Positions 1 through 7,875 of a stretch of DNA of 64,000 nt are shown here, one piece after another (the first letter of the stretch is position 1; the number at the start of each line of letters is the position of its first letter). The notes beneath the pieces are model-generated. The model saw only the letters and a list, made by a program, of their open reading frames with translations. It searched no databases and was not told the DNA's origin. This DNA is from Methyloversatilis sp. XJ19-49 (GTDB lineage Bacteria; Pseudomonadota; Gammaproteobacteria; Burkholderiales; Rhodocyclaceae), in contig NZ_JANINI010000003.1 in assembly GCF_024580145.1 (NCBI RefSeq), positions 1 through 64,000 of the forward strand, in the 5' to 3' direction. The translations under genes were made by a program, and so were the position numbers.

Positions 1-309
1 GGGCGCGCGCCGCAGGCCGTCCGGCAGCCGGGCGTCGCGCGCACTGGCCAGCCGGCGCAGCAGCGCGCTGTCGGTCACGCCGGTCGACGTCAGCGCCTGC
101 GCCTCATCGCTGATAAGGTGGCCGAGTGATGCCAGGCGATGGCGCGACAGCACCAGTTGCGGCACGCTGCCGGTCAGCAGTTGCGCATCGGCCAGCGCAT
201 CGTCGGTCAGTCCTTCGACCGGCAGGATCAGAGTGTCGCTGCCGACGTCGGCCAGCAGCACCGGGACGCCGCGTCGCAGGTCAAACAGGGCTCGTTCGGC
301 TTGGCGCAT
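1..309 (-). CDS. ribA: GTP cyclohydrolase II, N-terminal part (cut by window edge)
   Basis: The leftward frame is open from an ATG at 309 to base 1, giving 103 residues, and continues outside the window. It reads MRQAERALFDLRRGVPVLL and later GSVPQLVLSRHRLASLG. This resembles the extra N-terminal domain (a RALxxLRRGxPV stretch, then an ILS-R-AxxLG stretch) that precedes the catalytic core in the longer RibA proteins of alpha- and betaproteobacteria. RibA opens the imidazole ring of GTP, the first step of riboflavin synthesis. The catalytic Cys-rich zinc site lies beyond the edge, so the call rests on the N-terminal domain and on the divergent RibD-C gene next door. It could be a cluster-specific paralogue rather than the housekeeping enzyme. 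Confidence 0.6.
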   Translation of the reverse strand, partial: MRQAERALFDLRRGVPVLLADVGSDTLILPVEGLTDDALADAQLLTGSVPQLVLSRHRLASLGHLISDEAQALTSTGVTDSALLRRLASARDARLPDGLRRAP

Positions 310-395
310 GTCGTTTTTCCGATTTGATATTGATGTTGTCTGAAGACGTCCGTTGTCGTGTCGAGGCAGTCACCCCATGAAGGAATGCATTGCGG
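310..395. promoter_or_regulatory. divergent promoter region between ribA and the RibD-C gene
   Basis: This 86-bp spacer separates two divergent genes and is more AT-rich than its surroundings near 318-335. It must hold initiation signals for at least one of them. AAGGA at 380-384 lies just upstream of the rightward start. No convincing -35/-10 pair, operator or riboswitch fold (for example an FMN element) can be picked out by eye. Confidence 0.4.
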
Positions 396-1253
396 ATGTC
401 GCTGACCGAAGTCGCCGAAGATGAAGCTTGGGCCCTGGTCCTTCAGGCCCGTTGCGTCGATTGGTCCGCAATCGGGCTGACAAGTTTCCGTCATGAGCAC
501 GTCACGCTCGACGTGGCACCCGGCGGCGCGTGGACAAGTACCCCGCCGGCCGGCCCCGCTGCGGCGGCGCTGTTCGACATCTTTATGCCGCTGGTGGCGC
601 GTTGCGCGCCGCTCGCCATCGCGCAGATCGGCCAGAGCCTGGACGGGCGCATCGCCACCGAAAGCGGTCATTCGCACTATATAAATGGCGACGAGGCGCG
701 TCGTCACCTGCACAGGGTGCGTGCCGTGGTCGATGCGGTCGTGGTGGGCGTCGGCACGGCGGATGCCGATCAGCCGCAACTGACCGTGCGCCATGTGGCC
801 GGGCCGCATCCGGTGCGCGTGGTGCTCGATCCGCGGGGGCGCGCGCAGCGCAGCGGACCGCTTTTCGACCAGGCGGATGCGCCGACGCTGCATGTGGTCG
901 CAGCCGGTCAGTGCGCCGACGTGTCCGCCTCCGGGCACGTCGAACGCGTCGAGCTCATCACGGATGCAGAAGGATTCGCGCCGCAGTCAGTGCTCGCGCT
1001 GCTCGCGTCGCGCGGCCTGAAGCGGGTGTTGATCGAAGGGGGCGGGGTGACCGTGTCGCGCTTCCTGCAGGCCGGCGCACTCGACCGGCTGCACGTCATG
1101 GTCGCGCCCCTGCTGATCGGCTCCGGCCGACCGGGTCTGACCTTGCCGCCGATCGGCACGCTCGACGCGGCGCTGCGGCCGCGCTGTCGCAGCTATGCCT
1201 GCGGCAGCGACACGCTGTTCGATCTTGAACTGGACGCGACGCGGGCGCGCTGA
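396..1253 (+). CDS. RibD C-terminal-domain reductase
   Basis: The protein has 285 residues. About 70 residues without recognised similarity come first, followed by a RibD_C/dihydrofolate-reductase-like fold. Typical signatures are QIGQSLDGRIA, a VVVGVGTADADQPQLTVR stretch and LIEGGGVTVSRFL. RibD_C enzymes use NADPH to reduce the ribose of the RibA-derived pyrimidine to ribityl. The deaminase half of full RibD is absent. ATG 396 is preferred over the in-frame TTG at 390, with AAGGA at 380-384 upstream. The 3' end overlaps the convergent flippase-like gene by 61 bp. Next to ribA and a pterin-synthase homologue, it probably acts on a GTP-derived intermediate in this cluster, although housekeeping riboflavin synthesis cannot be excluded. 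Confidence 0.8.
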   Translation: MSLTEVAEDEAWALVLQARCVDWSAIGLTSFRHEHVTLDVAPGGAWTSTPPAGPAAAALFDIFMPLVARCAPLAIAQIGQSLDGRIATESGHSHYINGDEARRHLHRVRAVVDAVVVGVGTADADQPQLTVRHVAGPHPVRVVLDPRGRAQRSGPLFDQADAPTLHVVAAGQCADVSASGHVERVELITDAEGFAPQSVLALLASRGLKRVLIEGGGVTVSRFLQAGALDRLHVMVAPLLIGSGRPGLTLPPIGTLDAALRPRCRSYACGSDTLFDLELDATRAR

Positions 1254-2152
1254 CGCAGCAGAACGAGCGCGCCGGGCAGGCTGGACAGCAGCACCACCAG
1301 ACCGTACGTCACGGAAATCGCCACGCCCTGCGCCGGGTCCAGCCCCGCAGCCGCCCAGATCAGCGCGGCTGCGCCTTCGCGCACGCCCCAGCCGGCGACC
1401 GACAGCGGGATCGCCATCGCGAACAGCACCCAGGGCACCAGCGGCCACAGTTCGGCAGTCGGCAGCGTCACGCCGATCATGCGCGCACAGCATATGTATA
1501 CGGTGATGTAGCTCAGCACGACGCCCGCCGACGCCACGAGCTGCACCGGCCACACGTCGCGCGCCAGCAGGCCGCGCCCGAGCACGGCAGCGATGCGCCC
1601 GGACAGCGGGCCACGGCGGCGGCGCAGAAGAACCGCAGCCGCAGCCACAGCGACGGCCACGGCAAGCAGCACGCCGAAGGTCCAGCCGCCGGTGCGACCA
1701 TCGATCGCGCGCGCCAGCGCGGACTGCAGCGGCAGCGATGCGGCCAGTGCCGCCAGCGCGCACAGCAGCAGCACGAACTGGCCGGATGCGCGCTCGATCA
1801 CCACCGCCTGCCAGGCTGCATGACCGGCATCCAGATCCCGCGCATGTCGCCAGGCACGCGCGGCATCACCAGCCACGCCACCCGGCAACACCTGGTTCAG
1901 AAAGGTGGCCAGGTAGTACTCGGCGTACGCCTGCCGCCAGTCCAGTGGCGCGCCCAGGCGCGTGGCAGTGTAGCGCCAGCGCCAGGCCGAAAGCGCCACC
2001 TGCGGCACGCTCAGAAGGATGGCGGCGATCAGCCAGCCGGGCGATGCGCCGCCGATGGCCGCGCCGATCGCTGCGCTGTCCAGCGTGACGGCGAGCCCGA
2101 TCAGCAGTGCGGCACCGATCGCATAGCGCCAGAGGACGCGCCCCCGGGTCAT
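1193..2152 (-). CDS. flippase-like membrane protein (UPF0104 / lysylphosphatidylglycerol synthase TM family)
   Basis: The product is a 319-residue polytopic membrane protein with about eight hydrophobic segments. It carries the family hallmark NQVLPGGVAGDAARAWRHA near residue 80 and GWGVREGAA in the C-terminal half. It lacks the catalytic domain of MprF, so it is the stand-alone membrane module, which in other systems moves or anchors lipid-linked products. ATG 2152 overlaps the upstream methyltransferase stop in an ATGA arrangement, implying translational coupling. A longer frame upstream of 2152 is a shadow of the methyltransferase. In this cluster it may move the glycosylated product across the inner membrane, which is inference. 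Confidence 0.8.
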   Translation of the reverse strand: MTRGRVLWRYAIGAALLIGLAVTLDSAAIGAAIGGASPGWLIAAILLSVPQVALSAWRWRYTATRLGAPLDWRQAYAEYYLATFLNQVLPGGVAGDAARAWRHARDLDAGHAAWQAVVIERASGQFVLLLCALAALAASLPLQSALARAIDGRTGGWTFGVLLAVAVAVAAAAVLLRRRRGPLSGRIAAVLGRGLLARDVWPVQLVASAGVVLSYITVYICCARMIGVTLPTAELWPLVPWVLFAMAIPLSVAGWGVREGAAALIWAAAGLDPAQGVAISVTYGLVVLLSSLPGALVLLRQRARVASSSRSNSVSLPQA

Positions 2153-3060
2153 GGGCGGACGCCTGGCTCGGCGTACAGATCGAAATGGCCGACTTCGATC
2201 CGGGTCGAATCGCGCGCCAGCGCCAGTTGTCGGCGGGCGTGCCAGGCTTCGATGCGCGCGGCGGCATGCGGGCATTGTTCAGCGGCTGCGGCGCGCCAGC
2301 CGTCGAGCAGGGCGGCCGCGAGCGCGCGCTGCCCGGGGTCGTCGGTATGCAGCAACCAGGGACTGTCGGCCAGCGTGACGCGATACCCCTGCGCCTCGAG
2401 CAGCGTGGCCAGCCGAGGCGCGGCGCGCGCGCCGAGTGCCGGGCCTGACGTCCTGCCCGCACCATCGCCGGCGCCCTTGTGTCTTTGCTGGTGTGCGTTG
2501 AATGCCGTGCGCACGAAGGCGTCATCGGGATCGACGACCTCGCCATCGTCGATCGCCCAGTGACCATCGACACTGAGCGTGATCAGTACCGCGCAGCCCG
2601 CATCGGCGCAGGCGTCGGCGAAGCGGATCAGCCAGCCCTCGTCGACCAGATCGATCAGCGCCGAAGCGCTGACCAGATCGCTGCCGGCGAAGTCGTCTTC
2701 GGCCAGCATGTGCAGCGCACGCAGCAGGGTGTCGACCCCGACCGGTCGGCCGTCGCCGTCGCACAGCGCGCCGCAACTGCCTTGCGCCAGCTCGAGCAGC
2801 GCCGGGTCGTGATCGACCAGTTGCCAGTGCTGCGGCCCGGGCAGCCGGGGCGCGAGGTAGTGCGGATTGGCGCCGCTGCCGCTGCCCAGATCGATCAGTC
2901 GCAGCGGCCGGCCGACCCGGCTGCACAGCCAGTCGTGCGCCAGCCGGTTCAGCGGGTCGGCGCGGGCGGCCGTGTCGGCCGGGCGGCGCAGGGCGAGCCA
3001 GCCAGCGTCGAAGACCGTGTCCGGGTGCGGTGCGTCGAGGCGCCGGGGCGGGGCGCTCAT
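2149..3060 (-). CDS. class I SAM-dependent methyltransferase
   Basis: The protein has 303 residues. Motif I is LIDLGSGSGANPHYL near residue 55, followed by WQLVDHDPALLELAQ, whose acidic residue would bind the SAM ribose. Between the central strands lie SALIDLVDEGW and VLITLSVDGHWAIDD. The Rossmann-type methyltransferase fold is therefore clear, but the substrate is not. ATG 3060 overlaps the stop of the upstream glycosyltransferase and its own stop overlaps the flippase-like gene, so it sits in the middle of a coupled operon. It probably methylates the product built by the PTPS-like protein, the dehydrogenase and the glycosyltransferase. Confidence 0.8.
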   Translation of the reverse strand: MSAPPRRLDAPHPDTVFDAGWLALRRPADTAARADPLNRLAHDWLCSRVGRPLRLIDLGSGSGANPHYLAPRLPGPQHWQLVDHDPALLELAQGSCGALCDGDGRPVGVDTLLRALHMLAEDDFAGSDLVSASALIDLVDEGWLIRFADACADAGCAVLITLSVDGHWAIDDGEVVDPDDAFVRTAFNAHQQRHKGAGDGAGRTSGPALGARAAPRLATLLEAQGYRVTLADSPWLLHTDDPGQRALAAALLDGWRAAAAEQCPHAAARIEAWHARRQLALARDSTRIEVGHFDLYAEPGVRP

Positions 3061-4118
3061 GCTGCGTGGTCCTCCACCGCAAGCAGGTTCCGCAGTGCGG
3101 CGGCGAAGACGTCGCCGGCGGCGGTCCAGTCAGGCAGGTCGGCGCGCCGGGCGCGCGCGCCTGCGCGCAGCGCGTGGCGGGCCGACGCGTCGCCGATCAG
3201 GTGGCGCAGCGCAGCCGCCAGAGCCGGCGCGTCACCCGGCGGTACGGCGACGCCGCTACCCGGCGGCAACGTGTCGGACAGCGCGCCGCCGGTCGTCGTG
3301 AGCACCGGCAGACCATGCGCGAGCGCTTCGGTGATTACCATGCCATAGCCTTCGTAGTGCGACGGCAGCACGAACAGGTCGGCCGCCCGCCAGGCAGCAG
3401 CTAGTGCGGCGTCGCTGCATTCGCCGTGCAGGCGGATGCGCGCGTCGAGGCCGGTGGCGGAAATCTGCGCGGCGACCTGCGCTGCGTGGCTCGGCGTACG
3501 CCGGGTCGAGCCGATGCAATCGCAGGTCCAGTCGAGGTCGGCGACCGATGCCAGCGCGGCCACCAGTACATCGTGGCCCTTGCGTGGCGTGATCGTGGCG
3601 ACGCACAGCAGGCGCGGCGGTTGCTGGTCGGCAGCGGCCAGTGGCGCGGCATCGACGCCCGGCTCGACGACGGCGAGCGGCCTGCCGCCGACGCCGTAGT
3701 GGGCCAGCCGGCGCGCGGTGAATGGGCTGCTGGTGACGATGCCGGTCATGTGCGAAAGCGCCGCGCATTCGCTGTGCAGCAGGGCGCTGCGCCGGTCAGC
3801 GTCAAGACCGGTCTCGTCGGCAAGAGGATGATGGATCAGCGCGATCAGGCGCAGCCGCCCGGCGTGCGCTGCCGCGACGTCGGGCAGGCCGCCCAGTGCC
3901 AGACCGTCGATCACCACGGCGCTGCCGTCGGGCAGTGCGGCCAGCGTGCGCTGCAATCCACGGCGCGCCGTGTCGTCGGCGTCCGGGAAGCGGCCGGGCA
4001 GGCCGGTCACCTCGACTGTCCAGCCGCGTGCACGCAGCGCGCCCACGATGCGTGCGTCGTAGCGGTAGCCGCCGGTGTGCTGCGCCGGGTCGCCCGCGAC
4101 GATGAAATGCAGCGTCAC
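3057..4118 (-). CDS. GT4 family glycosyltransferase
   Basis: The protein has 353 residues and a GT-B fold. It starts [19 protein letters not shown] with the N-terminal glycine loop. The C-terminal half has [15 protein letters not shown] and the donor-binding region [20 protein letters not shown], the E-x7-E motif of retaining GT4 enzymes. The GTG start at 4118 forms a GTGA overlap with the PTPS-like gene. A much longer in-frame extension to 4595 is low-complexity shadow coding of the upstream gene. The acceptor is unknown. Its position between a pterin-synthase homologue and a methyltransferase suggests it glycosylates a heterocyclic intermediate rather than a polysaccharide. Confidence 0.85.
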
Positions 4119-4513
4119 AGATCCGCTTCGTAGCCGGCCCAGGCAATATGCGATTCGTGCAGCGTCACCTTCAGCCGGTCCAGCCCGCGACCGCTGTCGC
4201 CCAGCCGGCCGTCGCGCGTGGCGGCGGCGATGCGGTCGAACACCACGCGCGCCATGAATTCGGTGGTGGTGTTCTTGCCGCTGAACGCCGGTTCTTCGTC
4301 CAGATTGCGGAAGTTCAGGTCGGCCAGCACCTCGTGCAGCACGGTGCTGGCGAGACCGATGTCGATCACCAGTCCGTCGGCGTCGAGTTCGGCGCGCTGG
4401 AAACACACGTCGATCAGGTAGGTGGCGCCGTGCATGCGCTGCGCCGGGCCGAAGATTTCGCCCTGGAAGCTGTGCGCAATCATGATGTGGTCGCGGACGG
4501 TGAGGCTGTACAT
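4115..4513 (-). CDS. divergent 6-pyruvoyl-tetrahydropterin synthase / QueD homologue
   Basis: The protein has 132 residues, the usual length for this family, whose members convert dihydroneopterin triphosphate to pterin products. It begins [16 protein letters not shown] and ends with TLHESHIAW, keeping the glutamate of the pterin-binding site. Compared with QueD, one zinc histidine (H14) and the first histidine of the HGH motif (H28) remain. The second is alanine (HGATY, A30), and the catalytic cysteine position appears to be A24. It may bind or isomerise a related substrate rather than do standard QueD chemistry. GGGAGGTCC-type sequence on the coding strand is not obvious, and the start at 4513 is set by homology. 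Confidence 0.75.
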
Positions 4514-4548
4514 GGGAGGTCCTTGGTAAAGGAAACAGGAATGAGTAC

Positions 4549-5550
4549 TCAGGCGGCCGGGTAGCGGATGCGGTGGCACAGCACACCCGCGCCATCCGCG
4601 GCCAGCGCGGGCATCAGGTCGGGCAGATCGGCGAAATCGCTTTCGCCGCTGATCAGGATATCCAGACTGTGGTCGACGAGCAGCGACAGCGCGAGTTCCA
4701 TGCGCCGCCGATAAGACCAGCGCGGCAGCCGCGCGGGTGGCAGGTGACCGACCTGGCTGGAACGCAGCGTGAGGCGCTTTGCGTGGAAGGCTTCGCCCAG
4801 TGGCAACGCGACCGCCTGCTGACCGAACCAGCTCATTTCGATCACGGTGGCTTCGAAGCCGGCGATCGCCAGCGCGCTGCGCAGACCGGCGGCGCTGCCG
4901 CTGGCGTGAATGACCAGATCGCACTCCCGGCTGCACTCGGCCGTGTCCGGTGCGCGCAAGGCGAGGCCGAGCGCCGCGGCCGGCGCGGCGCGACCCGGGT
5001 CGATATCTATCAGTTCGACCAGCGTGCCCGGGATGCGCGCACACAGCCAGGCCACCAGCGTGCCGACAACGCCGGCGCCGATCACCGCGATGCGATCGCC
5101 GACTGACGGCGCGGCGTCCCACACCGCGTTGATGGCGGTTTCCATATTGGCGGCGAGTACCGCGCGCGCAGCCGGCAGGCCGTCGGGCAGCGGTACGACC
5201 GCGTCGGCGTGCACCACATAACGCTGCTGATGCGGGTGCAGGCAGAACACGGTGCGGCCGCACAGCGCCGCAGCCTGTTCGCCCCTGCCGTCCTCGACAA
5301 TGCCGACGCTGATGTAGCCGTACTTCACCGGCCCCGGGAAATCGCCCTGCTGGAACGGCGCGCGCATGCGCTGGTACTCGCTTGCCGGCACTTCGCCGCG
5401 GAATACGAGGCTTTCGGTGCCGCGGCTGATGCCGCTGTACAGCGCGCGCACGCGTACTTCACCGGCGCGCAGCACTGGCAGCACTTCGGTGCGCAATTCG
5501 CCGGTGCCGGGTGCGACGGTCCAGAATGCAGACGTGTGGTCGATGGACAT
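4549..5550 (-). CDS. MDR-family (alcohol-dehydrogenase-like) oxidoreductase
   Basis: The protein has 333 residues of the medium-chain dehydrogenase type with a GroES-like N-terminal half. The Rossmann motif [15 protein letters not shown] near residue 155 is followed by ELIDID, whose acidic residue favours NAD. The usual catalytic-zinc cysteine and GHE region are replaced by [10 protein letters not shown] and VKYGYISVG. This layout is known from zinc-less MDR members such as the BchC type. ATG 5550 is preferred to an in-frame GTG at 5562. It is the first gene of the leftward chain and lies 35 bp before the PTPS-like gene, so it probably oxidises or reduces a side chain of the cluster product. 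Confidence 0.8.
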
Positions 5551-5707
5551 GTCAGTTGGCACGGTTTTTCATCGTGAGCGAACGATTAGGTGCTTCAGGG
5601 TATCGAAACGCGAGTGGAAGTATGCAGGCCGATGGACGTGCCGCCACACCGGAAGGTTGCACGACGAACGACATGCAGTCCTCCGGACAGCGTTAAGGGA
5701 GATCGGC
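5551..5707. promoter_or_regulatory. divergent intergenic region of the pterin-like cluster
   Basis: This 157-bp region separates the leftward dehydrogenase operon from the rightward CDP-alcohol phosphatidyltransferase and so should carry promoters in both directions. AAGGGAG at about 5695-5701 is a good ribosome-binding site for a TTG start at 5708. No clear sigma-70 pair or operator repeat was recognised by eye. Confidence 0.4.
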
Positions 5708-6445
5708 TTGGCAGCAGGACTGGGTAATGCGCGACCGTTGGACGCGGTGCCGTCGATGTGGGTGGATCTGCTGACGGGGGGGGCGTTGCTCGCCCTCCTT
5801 GCAGCCGTCCTCACGCATGCGCTTGATCTACCGCTGCGGGTCGGTGGTGCTGCACTTGGTGTGTACGTGGTGATGGCGGCACTGCTGCTGCGCCACGGGC
5901 CGGACAGACGCCGGCCGCTGGGCGCAGCGAACCGGGTGACGCTGTTCCGCGCGCTGCTGGTGGCCTTGCTGGCCGGCACGCTGGCGAGCCCTGCTGCGCT
6001 GGCGGCGCAGGCGACGCCATTCGCCATGCTGACGCTCGCGGCGCTGCTGCTCGACGGGGTCGATGGCTGGGTCGCCCGCCGTTTCGATTCGGCCAGCGAG
6101 TTCGGCGCGCGCTTCGACATGGAACTCGACGCTTTTCTGATCGCAGTGCTGTCCCTGGCACCGGTACTGCTCGGCAAGGTCGGGCCCTGGGTGCTGGCGA
6201 TCGGCGCGATGCGCTACGCCTTCGTCGCCGCGATGCCGGTCTGGCGCTGGCTCGATCGCCCGCTGCCGGACAGCCTGCGCCGCAAGACGGTGTGCGTGGT
6301 GCAGGTGGCCTGTCTGCTGGTGTGCCTGCTGCCGGCCGTCGATGGGAGCACCACCGCCGCGCTGCTCGGCAGCGCGGCGGTGGTGCTCGCAGTCTCTTTT
6401 TTCATCGACATCCGCTGGCTGTATCGCCGGCGGACACACGCATGA
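5708..6445 (+). CDS. CDP-alcohol phosphatidyltransferase family membrane protein
   Basis: The protein has 245 residues, is strongly hydrophobic and has about six membrane segments. It contains the complete family signature D-G-x2-A-R-x8-G-x3-D-x3-D, seen as DGWVARRFDSASEFGARFD plus MELD. These enzymes transfer a phospho-alcohol from a CDP-linked donor, as in phosphatidylglycerol-phosphate or phosphatidylinositol synthesis. The TTG start at 5708 is chosen because AAGGGAG sits seven bases upstream. ATG 5756 is an alternative without a visible ribosome site. Its place opposite the dehydrogenase, PTPS-like and glycosyltransferase operon suggests that the cluster product is lipid-linked, which is inference. 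Confidence 0.8.
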   Translation: MAAGLGNARPLDAVPSMWVDLLTGGALLALLAAVLTHALDLPLRVGGAALGVYVVMAALLLRHGPDRRRPLGAANRVTLFRALLVALLAGTLASPAALAAQATPFAMLTLAALLLDGVDGWVARRFDSASEFGARFDMELDAFLIAVLSLAPVLLGKVGPWVLAIGAMRYAFVAAMPVWRWLDRPLPDSLRRKTVCVVQVACLLVCLLPAVDGSTTAALLGSAAVVLAVSFFIDIRWLYRRRTHA

Positions 6446-6483
6446 CATCGTCGGATTTCCGACTCCAACCGGGAGGGCTTTCC

Positions 6484-7095
6484 ATGAAAACGACGCATCC
6501 GCTGCTGCATCACCTGTATCGCCCGCTGCTTGTCGCGCTGGCATGCGGCACATTCGGCACCACGGCACAGGCCGAACCGCGCACCTATGAAATCGATCCC
6601 GATCACTTTTCGATCGGGTTCGGCGTGGCCCACATCGGCTACGCCGACATTCTCGGCCTGTTCCTGAAGGGCAAGGGCAGCTTCGTCTATGACGAACAGA
6701 CCCGCAAGCTGAGTTCGGGCCGCGTCGTGGTGTCGGCCGACAGTGTGTTCAGCAACCACAAGGCGCGCGACAACCACATTCGCGAGAACGATTTTCTGGA
6801 TGCGAAGCAGCACCCGGACATCGTGTTCGAAGCCACAGGTTATGAGACGACCAGCCCGACCGCCGGCAAGCTGGCCGGGAAGCTCACGCTGCTCGGCCAG
6901 ACCCGGCCGGTCACGCTGGACGTGACGCTGAACAAGGCGGCCAGTTATCCGTTCGGCCACAAGAAACACACGCTGGGCATTTCGGCGCGCACGACGATAC
7001 GGCGCAGCGACTGGGGCATGACCTACGGCGTGGAAAAGGGGCTGGTGGGCGATGAAGTGGCGCTGACGTTCGAACTGGAGGCGATCAGGCAGTAG
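6484..7095 (+). CDS. YceI-family periplasmic polyisoprenoid-binding protein
   Basis: The protein has 203 residues. A signal peptide (basic MKTTHPLLHHLYR, hydrophobic core, cleavage near TTAQA-EP) precedes the YceI lipocalin-like beta-barrel. The barrel has the family phrases TYEIDPDHFSIGFGVAHIGYA and TRPVTLDVTLNKAASYPF. YceI proteins bind long-chain isoprenoids or fatty amides in the periplasm. The start follows GGGAGGGC by six bases. It lies 38 bp after the phosphatidyltransferase and is likely co-transcribed, so a role in holding a lipid-linked product of this cluster is possible but unproven. Confidence 0.9.
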   Translation: MKTTHPLLHHLYRPLLVALACGTFGTTAQAEPRTYEIDPDHFSIGFGVAHIGYADILGLFLKGKGSFVYDEQTRKLSSGRVVVSADSVFSNHKARDNHIRENDFLDAKQHPDIVFEATGYETTSPTAGKLAGKLTLLGQTRPVTLDVTLNKAASYPFGHKKHTLGISARTTIRRSDWGMTYGVEKGLVGDEVALTFELEAIRQ

Positions 7096-7125: not shown

Positions 7126-7875
7126 TCAGGCCGGCTCGCACGCGTACTGACGCGACATGTCCTGCTTCATCTGGTCGTACAGCGGTTGCATGAAGGCCGG
7201 CAGGTGCGCCATCAACTCGGTGCGATAGATGACGGAAGGCACACGTTTGCCGCGGTGCTCGATCGCCTGGCCGATCAGGTGGATGCGGAAACCGAGCGCC
7301 GACAGGTGTCGCGCCAGCCGTGCTTCGGTGAGCGTGAACAGGTGTTCGATGCCGTGCAGTTCCGCCGCCACGAGCAGACCCAGATAAAGGCCAACCGGTA
7401 TGTACGGGAAACGCGGCTGATCGCGCGTGCCCATGTCCTCTTCTGAAATCGCCATCGGGCTGCCACTGTCGCCCTTGCGCTTGCGGTAGTCGGACAACAC
7501 CGCAAGGCGCGAGATTTCGACCATGGCGCGTCGATCCACCTGTGCCGGATCGATGATCGACCGGTCTATGGCATCGGTGCAGAGTTTTTCGAACGGCAGC
7601 AATTTTTCCGGCGCATCCGGGTCGCACTGGACCAGCCGGACACAGCCCACGATGCGGCCGTGTGCCTGCGCACGCAGCGCGATGTGCAGTGATCGCGCAT
7701 CGTAGCCGTCCGATTCTTCCTGGTCGGGATTGGTGTTTTCGTAGCCGAGTTCTTCGCAATACACCGCGTGGCGGACGCGAAACACCTCATGCTTGAGTTC
7801 GTCGCTGACGGCCGCTTCCACCGAGAAATACTTGGCGAAATTATCTTTTAGGTTTCCGACTTCGAGCAGAAACAT
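7126..7875 (-). CDS. PEP-CTERM/exosortase system-associated acyltransferase (TIGR03694-like)
   Basis: The protein has 249 residues and matches the exosortase-associated acyltransferase group, relatives of N-acyl amino acid synthases and LuxI-type enzymes. Visible features are FRVRHAVYCEELGYENTNPD near residue 35, IVGCVRLVQ in the core and VEISRLAVLSDYRKRKGD near residue 120, typical of acyl-ACP-using GNAT-like synthases. It should make an N-acyl amino acid or similar small lipid in the cytoplasm. It lies 60 bp downstream of the LolA-like gene in the same direction and ends convergently with the YceI gene. The acyl donor and acceptor are unknown. Confidence 0.85.
   Translation of the reverse strand: MFLLEVGNLKDNFAKYFSVEAAVSDELKHEVFRVRHAVYCEELGYENTNPDQEESDGYDARSLHIALRAQAHGRIVGCVRLVQCDPDAPEKLLPFEKLCTDAIDRSIIDPAQVDRRAMVEISRLAVLSDYRKRKGDSGSPMAISEEDMGTRDQPRFPYIPVGLYLGLLVAAELHGIEHLFTLTEARLARHLSALGFRIHLIGQAIEHRGKRVPSVIYRTELMAHLPAFMQPLYDQMKQDMSRQYACEPA

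Follow-up and report, generated by a model that had tools for sequence, protein, structure and literature searches.

A widespread orphan gene cluster of Methyloversatilis sp. XJ19-49 combines a PTPS-IV/MDR pair with predicted GTP-derived front-end enzymes and envelope-type genes

The DNA analysed here, called the window throughout, comprises bases 1-64000 (64,000 nucleotides) of contig C23 of Methyloversatilis sp. XJ19-49, whose genome is 4.1 Mb in 45 contigs; among the loci compared below, the closest named relatives are Methyloversatilis. Within positions 1-6445, a list of open reading frames (ORFs), Pfam and NCBIfam profile searches and, for the methyltransferase, an AlphaFold model confirmed the families of all eight genes that an initial annotation had recognised there from the letters alone. 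The cluster to which these genes belong is real and widespread, an orphan biosynthetic set whose invariant heart is the pair formed by a PTPS homologue of the PTPS-IV kind and an MDR oxidoreductase. The genes are listed below, together with one that is associated with the core without being part of it.

1..309, minus strand: RibA N-terminal fragment with a degenerate RibB-like domain (PRK08815-like GTP cyclohydrolase II), truncated at the contig start
396..1253, plus strand: RibD_C reductase domain alone, SLDGRIA motif kept (PF01872)
1193..2152, minus strand: flippase-like membrane protein (LPG_synthase_TM, profile match)
2149..3060, minus strand: class I S-adenosylmethionine (SAM)-dependent methyltransferase of an unnamed family (fold matches of an AlphaFold model)
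3057..4118, minus strand: GT4 glycosyltransferase (profile match)
4115..4513, minus strand: PTPS-IV, a T-fold PTPS homologue with FGPAQ and with HGA instead of HGH, lacking the catalytic Cys
4549..5550, minus strand: MDR oxidoreductase, constant partner of PTPS-IV (nearest NCBIfam model BchC, under its cut-off)
5756..6445, plus strand: CDP-alcohol phosphatidyltransferase (CDP-OH_P_transf) with DGxDGxxAR...GARFDMExD intact; start codon uncertain
6493..7095, plus strand: YceI-family protein, associated and not core (profile match)

Five minus-strand genes form a chain in the order MDR-PTPS-GT4-methyltransferase-flippase. The annotation had described four of them as joined by 4-bp overlaps, and this was borne out: there are three such overlaps (flippase/methyltransferase, methyltransferase/GT4 and GT4/PTPS, where GT4 begins with GTG at 4118 and the stop codon of PTPS lies at 4115), and the gap between PTPS and MDR is 35 bp. 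The RibD_C gene is convergent with the flippase gene, and the CDP-alcohol transferase gene is divergent from the MDR gene. At the end of contig C42, the catalytic half of RibA is followed by a creatininase-family gene and then by a membrane-type gene with an LtaS/EptA fold. Both are members of the cluster, which is therefore larger than the eight genes first described and amounts to about ten.

The annotation had asked for co-occurrence of these families outside this genome, and it proved strong. A genome scan with one genome per species found at least 563 stretches encoding a PTPS-IV relative, of which the best 80 were kept; with 4 further related and 7 plasmid loci, these make up 91 loci, two of which (L016 and L024) are the same place. 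The best-scoring 80 are no random draw, many being Halomonas or Vreelandella, and 17 of the 91 are shorter than 18.3 kb. By profile searches, PTPS occurs in all 91 of these loci, MDR in 90, GT4 in 89, the methyltransferase in 87 and RibD_C in 80, followed by the CDP-alcohol transferase (77), the flippase-like protein (59), RibA (54) and creatininase (53), and then by an FkbM methyltransferase (37), the LtaS-like protein (36), YceI (35), OpgG (29) and OpgH (26). The usual order is CDP-alcohol transferase (-), MDR, PTPS, GT4, methyltransferase, flippase, RibD_C (-), RibA, creatininase (-), and the hosts include Halomonas, Marinobacter, Variovorax, Thauera, Gemmatimonadetes, Acidobacteria, Alphaproteobacteria and actinobacteria.

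We also scanned an even draw of 398 genomes from the same phylum, with profile E-value cut-offs of our own choice. The PTPS and MDR profiles matched the identical 27 genomes, and the two genes lie 7-125 bp apart in 27 of 27. Fisher tests on the counts from these genomes take no account of relatedness. Closer to home, the distribution is patchy: PTPS relatives were found in 8 of the 61 near genomes (counting this one, and with one weak match) and in 6 of the 13 that belong to the same genus. Of 198 genomes from the phylum that includes the Planosporangium locus L071, 21 reach E 1e-15 in the PTPS search, 7 of them at 140 bits or above, one with a partial match at 103.5 bits and 13 at 58-84 bits. 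Six such stretches were analysed by profile: L119 and L120 carry the CDP-alcohol transferase, MDR, PTPS, GT4, methyltransferase, flippase, creatininase and RibA genes and lack RibD_C, L121 carries MDR, PTPS and GT4, and L122-L124 carry RibD_C, MDR, PTPS and GT4. In L123, a gene at 6266-6823 (-), probably FolB-like by its motif, overlaps and diverges from the RibD_C-MDR-PTPS-GT4 set.

The divergent, HGA-type PTPS of the annotation was recovered in every locus: HGA at positions 28-30 and Ala24, in the place of the catalytic Cys, are present in 91 of 91 loci, and none of the motifs of the catalytic PTPS-I, -II and -III groups is matched. Residues F21, G22, P23, A24 and Q25 are found in 91, 91, 89, 91 and 90 of the 91 loci, respectively. 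Glu85 and Glu120 are invariant in all 91 copies, Glu120 being the pterin-anchoring Glu, and an invariant N-L-D stands where QueD carries its Asp-His region. The window protein matches SCO6650 (PDB 3d7j; PTPS-IV of COG0720), which shares FGPAQ and falls in the same subfamily, over nearly its full length (E 3.5e-52). SCO6650 is reported to be free of zinc, to be without the catalytic triad and to show no PTPS activity. Its gene and that of SCO6655 lie near each other.

A 2017 report (PMC5445326) describes a PTPS-IV group of 561 sequences with FGPAQ, gives PF00925 and PF01872 as neighbourhood domains, and prints the catalytic PTPS-I, -II and -III motifs as CxxxHGH, CxxxxxHGH and ExxHGH. With its FGPAQ signature and its PF00925/PF01872 neighbourhood, the cluster PTPS is a member of this published subfamily. 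The text consulted names the two domains and no pathway; the MDR, GT4, methyltransferase, creatininase, CDP-alcohol transferase and LtaS-like partners are not named there. PTPS-IV is mentioned in PMC5041015 as an archaeal F420 enzyme, as an unpublished result, and this assignment has no obvious fit with the bacterial neighbourhood found here. SCO6655, a GTP cyclohydrolase II, appears in PMC2853524 among genes whose expression runs opposite to the predicted riboflavin flux. Literature searches on the gene set, SCO6650, PTPS-IV and pterin lipids found no description of a pathway in the text they reached, subscription papers being mostly outside their coverage. The view that the set is undescribed can therefore be kept for the pathway and has to be given up for its parts, as PTPS-IV is named, its neighbourhood was reported in 2017 and the structure of a member is solved.

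The MDR partner gave generic profile matches that include polyol and sugar dehydrogenases, and against the BchC model it scored 44.7 bits (cut-off 291.25). In 15 of 21 plasmid records the PTPS gene is annotated as 6-carboxytetrahydropterin synthase. On a Streptomyces anthocyanicus plasmid, the surroundings of the PTPS-IV gene (L105, 9001-9426) do not contain the rest of the cluster, the sole such case in the 7 plasmid loci.

RibA is split by a contig boundary. The window starts at the first base of C23, a contig on which PF00925 has no match; the fragment at 1-309 has no Pfam match of any kind and scores 25.4 bits against the PRK08815 RibA model. The PF00925 catalytic half is found at the end of C42 (L020, 8013-8840, minus strand). 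The ends of C23 and C42 have 12 bases in common, and the close relative L021 carries the whole gene in a single frame. A profile built from 49 RibA N-terminal parts matches the RibB half of this genome's RibBA (hhalign E 1.4e-5), and the fragment in the window is therefore a degenerate RibB-like domain and not the cyclohydrolase. The RibA called by the annotation is thus a real cluster gene, of which the window shows only the degenerate half.

In a 7-row alignment with E. coli RibA, Cys54, Cys65, Cys67 and Arg128 (E. coli RibA numbering) are invariant, and the zinc-Cys motif was found in 54 of 58 cluster RibA ORFs. Of the 54 ORFs in which position 105 is readable, 51 have Tyr there and 3 have Met; the other 4 of the 58 are unreadable. 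This genome's cluster RibA has Tyr at this position and, in a catalytic half that lies outside the window, carries the residues of a GTP cyclohydrolase II (three zinc Cys, Tyr105 and Arg128). The RibBA encoded beside RibH on contig C12 (G000:C12:40642-41085; L018 4634-6088, minus strand) has a RibB half that looks intact and a cyclohydrolase half without CLTGD...CDC; the cluster RibA, with its degenerate RibB and intact cyclohydrolase, is the mirror image of it.

The creatininase-family gene on C42 (PF02633, 220 bits) tends to accompany RibA: among the 74 loci of at least 18.3 kb, 43 have both, 2 have RibA only, 3 have creatininase only and 26 have neither. The three Met105 RibAs belong to the Streptomyces-type loci L102, L119 and L120, and creatininase adjoins RibA in each. 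A change from Tyr to Met at position 105 of GTP cyclohydrolase II halts the reaction at the formamidopyrimidine, which the archaeal creatininase-family enzyme ArfB deformylates. Because of the Met105 RibAs and this effect, the cluster creatininase may be an ArfB-like deformylase. Against the NCBIfam ArfB model, the copy of this genome gave no match and two relatives scored 25.1 and 37.0 bits (cut-off 180); the scores are nearer to MftE, likewise under its cut-off. A strict phyletic tie between creatininase and the cluster was considered and rejected, the family being common beyond it (51 of 371 non-cluster genomes).

The third enzyme of the predicted front end is the RibD_C protein. Only PF01872 was matched in 396-1253, with no RibD deaminase domain, and the bifunctional RibD model scored 113.3 bits (cut-off 156.35); the cluster gene is thus not a bifunctional RibD. 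The RibD_C copies keep the SLDGrIA and EGGG motifs. In the archaeal riboflavin/F420 front end, a cyclohydrolase (ArfA), a creatininase-family amidohydrolase (ArfB) and a RibD_C-type reductase (ArfC) handle the undeaminated pyrimidine one after another. All three kinds of enzyme are present in the cluster, and in L058, a Gemmatimonadetes metagenome-assembled genome (MAG), creatininase and RibD_C share one open frame. The cluster differs in having RibA, a GTP cyclohydrolase II, instead of ArfA, in a creatininase that scores under the ArfB cut-off, and in the lack of RibH in the window cluster.

The methyltransferase of the window has no Pfam match, and two relatives match Methyltransf_25 at 22.1 and 20.4 bits (cut-off 27). 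Its AlphaFold model, with a mean predicted local distance difference test score (pLDDT) of 92.2, matches class I SAM methyltransferases in a generic way. GT4 and methyltransferase share one frame in 22 of the 91 loci, a count that includes L099, where the frames are fragmented, and L032, where the contig ends within the methyltransferase. In L123, the GT4 frame seems by eye to continue into a methyltransferase-like domain.

On the membrane side, the CDP-alcohol transferase belongs clearly to its family (PF01066, 59.5 bits, cut-off 22). The signature of CDP-alcohol phosphatidyltransferases is DxxDGxxAR...GxxxDxxxD, and each motif acid is found in at least 85% of 75 aligned copies, a figure that, as for the other families (51 to 88 copies each), covers copies passing a length filter. 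It shares a frame with the LtaS-like protein in L056 (Derxia) and, by direct reading of the translated frame, in L068 (a Burkholderiales MAG), and with YceI in L042 and L076, two Kiloniellales MAGs that may represent one event. Shared frames link the membrane genes among themselves, and likewise the front-end genes.

The LtaS-like protein has a weak sulfatase match (PF00884; 26.2 bits for the copy of this genome, cut-off 25; none for L103) and, by sequence, no match in the PDB at E 0.1. The model of the L021 copy (mean pLDDT 86.7) has a helical N-terminal half and an alkaline-phosphatase-superfamily C-terminal domain, and its best Foldseek matches are LtaS, LtaP, PbgA, an alkaline-phosphatase-superfamily protein, MCR-1 and EptC, with BcsG lower, at modest TM-scores (0.33-0.36 by query for the best eight). 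E236 is invariant and D492 and H493 are kept in at least 90% of 25 rows; the E, GDH and SPTFGGxSWLAH motifs are retained, including a conserved candidate nucleophile Thr/Ser within SPTFGGxSW. With its predicted helical membrane N-terminus, its modelled fold and its metal-binding E and DH, the protein would be of the LtaS/EptA type. Its helical N-terminus and alkaline-phosphatase-superfamily domain are shared with the phospho-head-group transferases LtaS, OpgB, EptA and BcsG, which work with CDP-alcohol lipid donors; it differs from them in lacking a PDB sequence match and, in two loci, in forming one protein with the CDP-alcohol transferase. The gene is present in 15 of the 27 cluster genomes versus 4 of the 371 others, in several of them elsewhere in the genome. 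A second LtaS-like gene of this genome lies away from the cluster (G000:C44:68188-69795, plus strand, 545.7 bits).

Other envelope genes are found at the cluster's edges. FkbM methyltransferase, OpgH and OpgG genes flank it at ~16.2-20.4 kb in loci L028-L098, among them many Halomonas/Vreelandella, Wenzhouxiangella and Gemmatimonadetes, and OpgH and FkbM flank it in Kiloniellales loci, which suggests a coupling to envelope glucans in those lineages. OpgG (PF04349) was found in 9 of 12 genomes searched and had no match in this genome or in two cluster-bearing congeners. For this reason, osmoregulated periplasmic glucans were rejected as a general target, although OpgG and OpgH are often flanking. 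In the window, a PEP-CTERM/exosortase-associated acyltransferase (TIGR03694, 239 bits) lies at 7126-7875 (-); a match of this type stands beside the cluster in 4 of the 91 loci, close relatives only.

Taken together, we tentatively favour a dedicated pathway in which a reduced pyrimidine or pteridine derived from GTP is made into a conjugate destined for the envelope, a reading that comes close to an even chance without reaching it. RibA would open GTP to the 2,5-diamino-6-ribosylamino-pyrimidinone phosphate, helped by the creatininase-family amidohydrolase, which would be an ArfB-like deformylase at least where RibA has Met105, and RibD_C would then reduce the ribosyl side chain without deamination. 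In the committed step, the ring or side chain would be remodelled by the MDR enzyme and PTPS-IV, which keeps the pterin-anchoring Glu but no longer has the Cys, one of the zinc His residues or the Asp-His pair. GT4 would glycosylate and the methyltransferase methylate the product. The CDP-alcohol phosphatidyltransferase would make a phosphatidyl lipid that either carries this head group or serves as phospho-donor; the flippase-like protein would aid membrane crossing, and the LtaS/EptA-like protein would transfer the phospho-group in the periplasm. The prediction of GTP-derived front-end enzymes is well supported by sequence, and the membrane link is supported by adjacency, fusions and the fold match. 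The envelope theme of the annotation is strengthened by the LtaS/EptA-fold neighbour and the CDP-alcohol transferase fusions; we infer every substrate and product, the lipid linkage, export and decoration included.

Several points weigh against this pathway. The readable proteobacterial cluster RibAs carry Tyr105, so no deformylase should be needed there and the creatininase is unexplained in most loci; the creatininase family is, moreover, common (71 of 398 genomes, made up of 20 of 27 cluster genomes and 51 of 371 others). RibA is missing from 37 of the 91 loci. Two or three PF00925 matches were found in each of 14 cluster genomes searched, with and without a RibA at the locus, and where the locus has none the enzyme may come from elsewhere in the genome. 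By profile, the Streptomyces-type loci L119 and L120 have no RibD_C nearby, and the actinobacterial loci L122-L124 show only RibD_C-MDR-PTPS-GT4. The fold match of the LtaS-like protein is modest, as noted, and its gene is absent from 12 of the 27 cluster genomes at E <= 1e-20. Finally, 14 of the 91 loci have no profile match for the CDP-alcohol transferase and 55 have none for the LtaS-like protein, though some loci break off where their contig does, and L068, counted among the 14, has the CDP-alcohol transferase after all.

The same GTP front end could instead lead to a soluble glycosylated and methylated pteridine (a pigment, cofactor or signal), the CDP-alcohol transferase, flippase-like, YceI, LtaS-like and OpgG/OpgH genes being frequent neighbours from a separate envelope pathway. 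The steadiest core is indeed MDR-PTPS-GT4-methyltransferase (90, 91, 89 and 87 of 91 loci), and the reduced actinobacterial sets of L122-L124 fit this explanation. Glycosylated pterins occur in cyanobacteria and green sulfur bacteria: cyanopterin and limipterin bear sugars, and cyanopterin also a methyl group. Both start from different pterin precursors and use different glycosyltransferases, and we know of no RibA, RibD_C, MDR, CDP-alcohol or LtaS-like step in their formation. However, 77 of the 91 loci have the CDP-alcohol transferase, which adjoins MDR in most, and its fusions to LtaS-like and YceI proteins tie the membrane genes to the locus in both Burkholderiales and Kiloniellales. We regard a soluble product as unlikely, though deserving serious attention.

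Less probable still is that the substrates are sugars or polyols, RibD_C reducing a sugar phosphate, MDR oxidising a polyol phosphate, and the CDP-alcohol transferase and LtaS-like protein building a polyol-phosphate decoration of the envelope or of a periplasmic glucan. The polyol and sugar dehydrogenases among the MDR profile matches would agree with this, as would the presence of OpgG, OpgH and the LtaS-like gene in 29, 26 and 36 of the 91 loci. By contrast, a ring derived from GTP is indicated by RibA, which 54 of the 91 loci contain, by its zinc-Cys motif, kept in 54 of 58 ORFs, and by Glu120, which never varies in PTPS-IV; OpgG has no match in this genome or the two congeners.

RibA, RibD_C and a PTPS-family protein are classic members of riboflavin and queuosine pathways, and the cluster could in principle be a spare set of such genes. 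The annotation had asked for housekeeping copies, and extra RibA and RibD genes were found elsewhere in the genome: the single RibH is on C12 beside a RibBA, a PF00925 gene is on C11 (260-codon frame), a RibD_C gene is on C43 (364-codon frame), and other PTPS-family genes are on C12. RibH, riboflavin synthase and Que genes do not appear among the identified neighbour families, which are not all families, and riboflavin synthase was not searched for; the window cluster is not a riboflavin gene set. On these separate genes and on the lack of HGH in 91 of 91 PTPS-IV copies, a riboflavin/queuosine duplication was rejected as highly improbable, which so far speaks against a cluster making only those products. 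Contig C12 also holds, at G000:C12:207067-207756 (-), two PTPS matches in one 529-codon frame; they differ from PTPS-IV and from the lone PTPS gene at C12:22093. Chance adjacency of unrelated genes, for which nothing speaks beyond variation at the cluster edges, is refuted with near certainty by an order kept in proteobacteria, Gemmatimonadetes, Acidobacteria and actinobacteria and by the identical genome distribution of PTPS-IV and MDR.

If the envelope-directed pathway is correct, the cluster might define envelope molecules of a new class, either phospholipids or periplasmic glycoconjugates, that carry a reduced diaminopyrimidine or pterin, glycosylated and methylated, as their head group. 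This head group would derive from GTP by way of MDR and a T-fold enzyme without the PTPS catalytic residues, an LtaS-like enzyme would transfer it in the periplasm, and hundreds of bacterial species would have the molecule; in this full form we hold the proposal to be less likely than not, though a serious possibility. With at least 563 PTPS-IV-encoding stretches at one genome per species, this looks like a common orphan pathway, and it offers a function to seek for the crystallised SCO6650, a protein of unknown role. The cluster hints at riboflavin-type chemistry put to use at the cell surface, which can be tested directly in tractable Streptomyces and Halomonas.

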